A stretch of DNA of 64,000 nt, taken from Eubacteriaceae bacterium (lineage in GTDB: Bacteria; Bacillota; Clostridia; Lachnospirales; Lachnospiraceae). Both the position numbers and the translations under genes were made by a program. Below the pieces are notes generated by a model. The model searched no databases, was not told the DNA's origin, and worked only from the letters and a program-made list of their open reading frames with translations. The number at the start of each line of letters is the position of its first letter. Within the stretch, counting starts at the first letter, position 1. The DNA is taken from contig CAJTFB010000005.1 in assembly GCA_910575665.1 (NCBI GenBank), forward strand, positions 62,001-126,000. The letters run 5' to 3'. Shown piece by piece: positions 20,344 through 23,970 of the stretch.

Positions 20344-20595
20344 ATGAGTGATTTATCAGCAACAAACTGCGGTGGCGGATGCTCCTGCAATGAGGGACAC
20401 AATGGCGGATGCTCTTGGATTATCATCATCCTTCTTCTGTGCTGCTGCGGCGGCGGCAACGGTGGCTGCGGTGGCGGCGGCAGCTGGGGCGGCTTCGGCG
20501 GAGACTGCAGCTGCATCATCTGGATCCTGCTGCTTCTGTGCTGCTGCGGCGGCAACGGTGGCTGGGGCGGATGCGGCGGTGGCGGATTCTGCTAA
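20344..20595 (+). CDS. Gly/Cys-rich hydrophobic miniprotein
   Basis: This 83-residue product has 15 cysteines and is rich in Gly. It is built from two similar units: a CSC turn, a hydrophobic run (WIIIILLLCCC, then IIWILLLLCCC), and a Gly/Asn/Trp tail. Both units end in a CCCGG block. AGGAGG precedes the ATG and a strong terminator follows, so this looks like a real gene. Similar proteins in Clostridia are sometimes labelled chorion-class high-cysteine, a name that implies no function. Possible roles are a surface or spore-coat component or a membrane peptide. A CATATGATAT box at 20303 resembles a late sporulation sigma -10 element but has no convincing -35. Confidence 0.75.
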   Translation: MSDLSATNCGGGCSCNEGHNGGCSWIIIILLLCCCGGGNGGCGGGGSWGGFGGDCSCIIWILLLLCCCGGNGGWGGCGGGGFC

Positions 20596-22136: not shown

Positions 22137-23003
22137 ATGTTTAGTCAGTTTTTTGGAAATTATCTTTTGAATAAAGGAAAGATTACCAAAGCTCAATTCA
22201 CCTCATGTATGGAATATATGAGGGCGAATCGGGTAAAACTTGGTCTGATCGCAGAATCCGAAGGGCTTCTTACCCGCGATCAGGCAGACGAACTGAATCA
22301 TCTCCAGATGCAGAGCGATAAACGTTTCGGTGATCTGGCGATCGAAAAGGGATATCTCACCAACGTAGACATTTCGCATCTGCTCCAGCTTCAGGGAAAT
22401 CCTTATCTGATTTTTGTTCAGGCATTGGAAGAAAATAAGATCATGAACCGGGATGAGGTCAACAAACTGGTTGCAGAATTCCAGAAGGAGGAAAGTTTCA
22501 CAAATACAACGCTGGAAGCAATCAAATTTGGAGATTTTGACCGCCTTTTGCCTGCTTTTGTAACAACCAAAAACGAAGGTTATCTCAATCTTATGGCGCT
22601 TGCCCTAAGAAATATCGTACGTTTTGTAAGTTCTTACATACGGATCGGCAAAGCTGAAAATGTGACTGACTATTCCGCCAAATACATAGCATACCAAAAA
22701 ACAACCGGTGCGTATGAAGGATTTCTCGGCTTCGCTAGCGACGATAATTCGATTTTAACAGTGGCAGATGGTTATGCCGGAGAATATTTTGAAAAGCCAG
22801 ACGAAGATGCTTTAGATTCCGTCTGCGAATTTACAAATTGTATCAATGGTCTTCATGCCACTGAACTGAGCTATCAGGAAGTTATCATTGATATGCTGCC
22901 GCCAGAATACATGTTTGATGGCACAATAAAAACATCAGAAGAATTTTTCGTGCTTCCCCTGTACATTACAGGAAAAAGGGTTGATATGATTGTAAAAATG
23001 TAG
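22137..23003 (+). CDS. MshEN-like / CheX-like fusion (putative c-di-GMP-responsive CheY-P phosphatase)
   Basis: The 288-residue cytosolic protein has two parts. Residues 34-57 and 63-86 form two 24-residue motifs of the type RLGxxL..xGxLxxxxLxxxLxxQ (KLGLIAESEGLLT ending LQ, and RFGDLAIEKGYLT ending LQ) separated by exactly 5 residues. This is the spacing of MshEN c-di-GMP-binding domains. A further LLNKGKITKAQF segment precedes them. The C-terminal half resembles CheX. It has E231 and N234 in CEFTNCING, the E-x2-N phosphatase pair, and a terminal FFVLPLYITGKRVDMIVKM strand. The next gene is a CheY, the natural substrate. Ligand binding is inference. AAGGAG precedes the ATG. Confidence 0.75.
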   Translation: MFSQFFGNYLLNKGKITKAQFTSCMEYMRANRVKLGLIAESEGLLTRDQADELNHLQMQSDKRFGDLAIEKGYLTNVDISHLLQLQGNPYLIFVQALEENKIMNRDEVNKLVAEFQKEESFTNTTLEAIKFGDFDRLLPAFVTTKNEGYLNLMALALRNIVRFVSSYIRIGKAENVTDYSAKYIAYQKTTGAYEGFLGFASDDNSILTVADGYAGEYFEKPDEDALDSVCEFTNCINGLHATELSYQEVIIDMLPPEYMFDGTIKTSEEFFVLPLYITGKRVDMIVKM

Positions 23004-23079
23004 TAGTTATGCGTTCTTTTCAATTATAATCATAACAAAACACATTTTGATGCAGATTTCACATAAGGGAGGTTGTTTT

Positions 23080-23436
23080 ATGGCAACAGTATTGATCGTG
23101 GATGACTCCAAAACATCCCGCAGAATATTAAAGAACATTTTGATAGAAAACGGTTACGAAATTATAGGAGAGGCAACGGACGGACAGATCGGTTATGAAA
23201 AGTACATAGAATTTCGGCCAGATCTTGTGACATTAGACATCACCATGCCGATTCTAGACGGACTCGGTTGTCTGGAGAAGATCATGCAACTTGACAAAAA
23301 TGCGAACGTGATCATGGTAACTGCCGCCGGACAGAAATCAAAGATGGTGGAAGCGATAAAACTTGGCGCAGCAGAATTTATCCAGAAACCATTTGAACCA
23401 GAACAAATCCTATCCGTAATCAAAACCGTCATATGA
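23080..23436 (+). CDS. CheY-like single-domain response regulator
   Basis: The 118-residue receiver has DD at 8-9, phospho-acceptor D53 (VTLDITMP), Thr in MVTAAGQ, and Lys in IQKPF. It contains no output domain. The start at 23080 has GGGAGG 7 nt upstream. It lies 76 nt downstream of the CheX-like phosphatase and probably shares its transcript. Together they could form a small adaptation module that acts on the flagellar motor or another target. Confidence 0.93.
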   Translation: MATVLIVDDSKTSRRILKNILIENGYEIIGEATDGQIGYEKYIEFRPDLVTLDITMPILDGLGCLEKIMQLDKNANVIMVTAAGQKSKMVEAIKLGAAEFIQKPFEPEQILSVIKTVI

Positions 23437-23454: not shown

Positions 23455-23515
23455 AAAAATAAACACAATCCCCTGTTGGGAGCTTGCTCACAAAAAGGGG
23501 ATTGTGTTTATTTTT
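23455..23515 (+). terminator. Terminator of the CheX-like/CheY unit (part of repeat copy 1)
   Basis: A perfect 19-bp stem (23455-23473 with 23497-23515) has a 23-nt loop and ends in T5. The right arm, the loop and the inner part of the left arm belong to the 170-bp repeat. Copies 2 and 3 keep a shorter stem. Confidence 0.85.
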
Positions 23516-23970
23516 ATACGGCGACAGCCGTTCAGCGAGATGTAGCGAAGCGGAATCGAGCTGAGCATGGCGACGTATGGGCTCGCGAACTACCGCGCAG
23601 CGGCAGTGAGATGAGCATGGCGGCAGGACTGGTGGCAATCCCCTGTTGGGAGCTTGCTCACAAAAAGGGGATTGTGTTTATTTTTATACGGCGACAGCCG
23701 TTCAGCGAGATGTAGCGAAGCGGAATCGAGCTGAGCATGGCGACGTATGGGCTCGCGAACTACCGCGCAGCGGCAGTGAGATGAGCATGGCGGCAGGACT
23801 GGTGGCAATCCCCTGTTGGGAGCTTGCTCACAAAAAGGGGATTGTGTTTATTTTTATACGGCGACAGCCGTTCAGCGAGATGTAGCGAAGCGGAATCGAG
23901 CTGAGCATGGCGACGTATGGGCTCGCGAACTACCGCGCAGCGGTAGTGAGATGAGCATGGCGGCAGGACT
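23466..23970. repeat. Three tandem copies of a 170-bp repeat
   Basis: Copies span 23466-23635, 23636-23805 and 23806-23970, the last about 5 bp short. They are identical by eye except one C-to-T change at 23944. Each has a terminator-like hairpin (AATCCCC to GGGGATT) followed by a GC-rich block in which TGAGCATGGCG occurs twice, about 50 bp apart. The open frames across it shift between copies because 170 is not a multiple of three, so coding is unlikely. No gene lies in 23437-24069 outside the repeat. Confidence 0.95.

Follow-up and report, generated by a model that had tools for sequence, protein, structure and literature searches.

The N-terminal region of the protein described here is most akin to the MshEN domain, which is presented in Wang et al. 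2016 (PMC5013675; structure 5htl) as two 24-residue motifs joined by a 5-residue spacer. In the same paper, residues R9, G11, Q32, R38, L39, G40, L58 and Q61 of MshE are named as ligand contacts, a single mutation at any conserved hydrophobic residue of MshE is given as lowering the affinity more than 10-fold, and one sentence states an association of MshEN with CheX. Association of MshEN with CheX is thus already in print, and no functional study of such a fusion is named in the titles and abstract openings returned by searches of the open-access literature. What is added here is a row of four repeats, a conserved and lopsided putative ligand site, a close linkage, in any of three arrangements, with a second CheY, and the apparent survival of the module without flagella.

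The solved CheX chains (1xko/1squ and 3hzh) come from Thermotoga and Borrelia, 3hzh being a CheX-CheY complex. Our protein resembles CheX in scoring over the Pfam cut-off, in its E-x2-N pair and in a Pro-Pro located 21 residues after the Asn; unlike CheX, it carries an N-terminal sensor-like region and usually has its own CheY adjoining or fused. Compared with MshEN, the differences include the number of repeats and the partner, which is CheX and not an ATPase.

The locus was found in a stretch of 64,000 nucleotides (henceforth the window) from a 4.19-Mb draft genome of the Lachnospiraceae. Its features are the following:

22137..23003, + strand: MshEN-like/CheX fusion gene, 288 aa (ATG start, stop 23001-23003)
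22149..22220, + strand: repeat 0, degenerate (residues 5-28), no Arg/Lys at position 1 and Met for Gln at position 24
22236..22307, + strand: repeat 1, putative first half-site for c-di-GMP (residues 34-57), conserved variant K34...A50...N54...Q57
22323..22394, + strand: repeat 2, putative second half-site (residues 63-86), near-canonical RFG...I...L...Q
22410..22481, + strand: repeat 3, degenerate (residues 92-115), Tyr/Phe at position 24 in 78/80 sequences
22686..22931, + strand: CheX phosphatase domain (residues 184-265; PF13690, E 1.1e-8, 35.5 bits, cut-off 27)
22827..22838, + strand: catalytic-type E231-x2-N234, aligned with ELGN of CheX 1xko
23080..23436, + strand: CheY2, a CheY-type single receiver domain of 118 aa (ATG 23080, stop ends 23436)

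The two genes are separated by 76 nt (23004-23079), exactly as the earlier note had it. The upstream neighbour, on the opposite strand, we take to be a chorismate synthase-like gene, and past a gap downstream of CheY2 lie what are presumably rpsF/ssb/rpsR-like genes. Given that the flanking genes on both strands look ordinary and that the flagellar operon of this genome is on a different contig, the fusion and CheY2 form a unit of two genes that is separate from that operon. The named relatives are uncultured Roseburia and Lachnoclostridium MAGs, with 95-98% identity in the fusion protein; no viral relatives were confirmed. An Rfam scan of the window at gathering scores returned three tRNAs and nothing else. 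Directly after the CheY gene (23466-23970), a 170-bp unit is repeated three times in tandem, the copies 99% alike and each containing what, judged by eye, looks like a terminator-type inverted repeat. Elsewhere in the window, an ORF of 83 aa (20344-20595) is Gly/Cys-rich and has two hydrophobic stretches.

The sensor region of the window protein displays two 24-residue MshEN-type motifs, at residues 34-57 (KLGLIAESEGLLTRDQADELNHLQ) and 63-86 (RFGDLAIEKGYLTNVDISHLLQLQ), with a spacer of exactly 5 residues (58-62), and in this respect the earlier description stands. Chance is ruled out as their origin, since the top two-motif score at the 29-residue offset (19/22) was reached by none of 20,000 shuffled versions of the protein, the shuffle maximum being 16. 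Overlooked by the earlier note were two further degenerate repeats, at residues 5-28 and 92-115, which continue the same 29-residue register with 5-residue spacers; no shuffle out of 5000 attained the four-repeat score. Profile-profile comparisons among the four repeats gave probabilities of 67.7-97.7%, versus at most 10.3% for control segments, and the mean family motif scores at residues 5, 34, 63 and 92 were 7.97, 8.62, 10.69 and 6.65, whereas beyond residue 120 the background was 2.3 (sd 0.78). Repeat 0, for example, matched repeat 2 at 96.8%, and its G7 and L10 are kept in 75 and 78 of 80 sequences. The basic residue at position 1 is absent from both outer repeats of the window protein, and we read repeats 0 and 3 as probable caps around one ligand site. 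A weak match to the sensor part (E 0.04) was also seen elsewhere in the genome, inside an 822-aa open frame (L003, 1501-1827).

Conservation was assessed in an alignment of 80 sequences, i.e. the window protein and 79 of the 80 fetched loci (L064 was omitted for a stop in frame). Motif 1 keeps K34 in 74, G36 in 79, A39 in all 80 and Q57 in 78; in motif 2, F64 and G65 are kept in 78 each, L83 in 74 and Q86 in 80, while residue 63 is Arg in 68 and Lys in 8 more. All six ligand-type residues (34, 36, 57, 63, 65 and 86) are intact in 73/80, and 72/80 have both these and the catalytic E/D and Asn. A search with the family profile retrieved MshE (5htl) at E 1.2e-5, pairing residues 29-86 with 4-61 of that chain. 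On it residues 34/36/57/63/64/65/83/86 align to R9/G11/Q32/R38/L39/G40/L58/Q61; the residues opposite these and opposite L10 are kept or conservatively changed.

The two halves of this putative site are not alike. Where MshEN has R...L...L, motif 1 of the fusion has a conserved K...A...N: position 17 is Ala in 53/80 and Val in 20/80, and position 21 (N54) is Asn in 64/80. In the window protein two hydrophobic positions of this motif are further occupied by Glu40 and Ala50, in addition to the Lys and Asn named in the earlier note. The published relaxed MshEN motif is fitted by motif 2 in 66/80 sequences and by motif 1 in only one, the other 79 failing (77 of the 80 at position 21); in the window protein only the motif at 63 satisfies it. 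The Pfam MshEN model (PF05157) did not match the window protein at E values up to 10, nor any of the 80 relatives at E 0.01, its sole match in this genome lying in an open frame of 567 aa (contig C20). The MshE-related NCBIfam model NF053729 (c-di-GMP motif) matches 80/80 relatives at E <=0.01; in the window protein (E 1.1e-9, best fit at residues 42-86) its 37.9 bits are just under the cut-off of 38. Other Pfam models that hit the 80 were FumaraseC_C (37) and DUF4388 (30). Given the misfit of motif 1 and the lack of a PF05157 match, we term the region MshEN-like and not a strict MshEN domain.

The earlier note had considered binding uncertain on account of the Lys and Asn in motif 1. The doubt over Lys for Arg is answered, because Lys is the norm among relatives, and the conservation of K34 and N54 rules out decay at these positions. 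The failure of motif 1 against the relaxed motif nevertheless makes canonical c-di-GMP binding weaker, and the first guanine pocket appears to be remodelled throughout the family. Dinucleotide binding by the repeats is, on balance, probable, though it should not be assumed. Alternatively, the repeats might have ceased to bind c-di-GMP and serve as a structural or dimerisation arm on a constitutive CheX. Consistent with this are the changes at positions 7, 17 and 21 of the window's motif 1, the absence of PF05157 matches in the family, and the existence of MshEN domains that have lost binding, e.g. XpsE (PMC5013675). A plain scaffold, however, would not need K34, G36, Q57, G65 and Q86, which rank with the best-conserved positions of the protein, and we regard such an arm as improbable.

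In the C-terminal output region, the Pfam CheX model matches 72/80 relatives at E 0.01, and the family profile matches the CheX chains 1xko and 1squ (alignments inspected) and 3hzh (match table only). The CheX-type E231-x2-N234 pair pointed out previously is indeed present and widely kept: residue 231 is Glu in 66 and Asp in 13 of 80, N234 is found in 79/80, and the combination of E/D with N likewise in 79/80. The Asp form is characteristic of one clade, that with the receiver gene upstream (12/12), and occurs besides in L107. We consider the domain assignments nearly certain, and at the level of sequence there is good support for a CheX-type phosphatase of CheY-P governed by a probable c-di-GMP sensor.

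CheY2 is a lone receiver domain of CheY type (Response_reg, E 1.6e-29) with the acidic pair and the phospho-accepting Asp (D8, D9 and D53, conserved in 80, 79 and 80 of 80 receivers). Counting the 80 fetched loci without the window, a receiver adjoins or is inside the fusion in 76 (downstream in 53, upstream in 12 and fused at the C-terminus in 11); in one more it is elsewhere, and in three none was found within the stretch examined. On a quick tree the upstream arrangement is a single clade and the fused state requires two changes, gain and loss not being told apart; most simply, these would be two separate fusions. The three copies without a receiver differ from each other: L109 has lost ligand-site residues, L132 the catalytic pair and L086 neither. 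Seven copies lack at least one of the six ligand-type residues and six of them (L098, L102, L110, L111, L127 and L129) still have the receiver, so the loss of these residues is not tied to the absence of a receiver.

The same linkage is seen beyond the family. A scan of 299 genomes of the phylum provided nine full-length fusions in seven other families. Of 19 new loci (L135-L153) we examined 12 (L137-L148), L135-L136 duplicating loci already counted and L149-L153 matching one domain only; a receiver was adjacent in all 12, of which 11 are from other families and two are without the first repeats. These last two (L147 and L148, 225 and 242 aa) match only from approximately repeat 3 onward, have the receiver gene upstream, and are possibly CheX versions devoid of the sensor. 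Both the fusion and its CheY neighbour, whose conservation the earlier note had left to be checked, are therefore conserved, and its central proposal, a fusion of an MshEN-type sensor region with a CheX-type phosphatase, linked to a CheY, is supported at the level of sequence. Nothing argues more strongly for the receiver as substrate than this steady adjacency; CheY2 is very probably what the CheX domain of the fusion acts upon, and a pair kept together in so many relatives is probably a real control unit.

To place the module in its cellular context, we surveyed 299 genomes from 298 genera of the family. The fusion was present in 95, FliM in 152 and both in 89. Matches were found in 103 genomes, from which eight with a single domain (G143, G109, G075, G271, G119, G086, G105 and G072) were not counted; G052, with a partial match, and G132, with a weak one, were kept in the count. 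The module tracks flagella, co-occurring strongly with FliM, which is found in 89/95 fusion genomes vs 63/204 others (Fisher p 1e-26; such tests, here and below, take the genomes to be independent, and they are not). Within the genus, 37/39 genomes have a match (26/26 of the better assemblies); in G006 it is only to a more distant paralogue. In four loci of the genus (L122, L124, L125 and L126), the opposite strand carries a lone gene that we take to be CheW-like, located 1.7-3.7 kb downstream of the fusion. GGDEF proteins are present in all 95 fusion genomes (at least 10 matches in the window's own) but in all 152 FliM genomes too, so their presence adds nothing specific. In five loci, all from a single clade of nine members, a GGDEF gene lies next to the fusion in divergent orientation, and the only one of these that was scanned is GGDEF-EAL; L057, a further member of this neighbour cluster, had no GGDEF match. 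As a general feature such a neighbour is ruled out, with a GGDEF-like ORF in just 6/80 loci, the sixth (L101) 2.8 kb away from the fusion. A sigma-D-type promoter is likewise rejected as a general feature, only 1/80 upstream regions fitting the consensus (background 0.0042 per 300 nt).

As to output, the fla/che operon of the window's genome has its own CheY (CheY1), next to a FliY that carries a CheC domain; CheY1 and CheY2 share 49% identity. A lone CheX is found elsewhere in this genome, as is a second, distant CheA (L174, 8798-10981; ~30% identical), surrounded by genes that are presumably of CheB, CheW and receiver type. The separate CheY1 and the location of CheY2 outside its operon fit a phosphate sink, in which CheY2 would not bind the motor and, together with the phosphatase, would drain CheA and lower CheY1-P, with c-di-GMP setting the drain. 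We hold this to be possible, if rather unlikely.

Six carriers have no FliM match (G172, G253, G073, G098, G148 and G100). Two of them, G172 and G253, have flagellin, and the absence of FliM there is probably an assembly gap. G100 matched neither flagellin nor CheA. The remaining three (G073, G098 and G148) occupy separate positions on the tree; they match neither FliM nor flagellin, have one CheA each, and retain the fusion and the receiver. Compared with the window's genome, their CheA shares 57% (G148), 51% (G073) and 54% (G098) identity with the flagellar CheA and ~30% with the second CheA, and it is near what we take to be topA- or codY-type genes, as at the flagellar operon of the window's genome. 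On these grounds, flagella seem to be gone from these three lineages while the module stayed. Their che clusters (L176, L177 and L175 for G073, G098 and G148) stand where the flagellar operon would be, and contain genes presumably of cheW and cheD type; that of G148 also has CheC and CheY, and that of G098 a YcgR-type PilZ gene.

These genomes, with CheA, the CheW- and CheD-type genes, fusion and receiver but neither FliM nor flagellin, raise the question of a non-flagellar output, CheY2-P acting on some other machine, e.g. type IV pili, switched by c-di-GMP. PilT-family matches (counted at E <=1e-70) are present in 4/4 carriers that lack both FliM and flagellin (E <=1e-138 in G098, G100 and G148; 2e-81 in G073), and among FliM-less genomes in 6/6 with the fusion vs 56/141 without it (p 0.005), although two of those six have flagellin. 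Among FliM genomes, on the other hand, PilT is equally common with the fusion (74/89) and without it (51/63; p 0.83), by which type IV pili are rejected as the main partner, and all 15 fusion genomes without PilT have FliM. We see a non-flagellar output as quite unlikely. The earlier step from CheY-P lifetime to swimming is in turn not supported as it was stated, considering the CheY1 of the fla/che operon, the rarity of the sigma-D pattern and the three relatives with module and CheA and neither FliM nor flagellin; set against this doubt is the strong co-occurrence with FliM.

The reading we prefer is that the fusion is a c-di-GMP-tuned phosphatase of CheY2-P, and for the whole chain we would give a probability of roughly 0.55. 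The input would be a rod of four MshEN-type repeats, the middle two (34-57 and 63-86) making up one dinucleotide site, whose first half is modified but conserved and whose second half is near-canonical, while repeats 0 and 3 cap that site and pass the signal on. The CheX domain would insert E231 and N234 into the active site of CheY2-P and remove the phosphate. Ligand binding may raise or lower this activity; that it regulates it at all is, if binding occurs, a reasonably good bet. By such means c-di-GMP would set how long CheY2 stays phosphorylated, presumably by CheA, and in flagellated hosts the flagellar switch would most likely be biased, directly or via the drain of phosphate from CheA.

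A bolder version, which we offer as speculation and think rather doubtful as a whole, is that repeats, CheX and CheY2 are a portable module in which c-di-GMP determines how long a second CheY keeps its phosphate and which can work apart from the flagellum, as its retention with CheA in flagella-less lineages would suggest. Its site would be lopsided by design, a near-canonical guanine pocket being paired with a Lys-Ala-Asn pocket that may change the affinity or the preferred ligand, e.g. cGAMP beside c-di-GMP. The altered half-site would also be a test of the tolerance of MshEN-type sites to change. The module is amenable to experiment, both of its proteins being small and soluble, and the MshEN-CheX-receiver versions that occur naturally as one chain are simpler still. 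If the proposed chain is true, c-di-GMP would be wired directly to the turnover of CheY-P in Lachnospiraceae of the gut and in further families of the phylum, a route distinct from braking by PilZ/YcgR.
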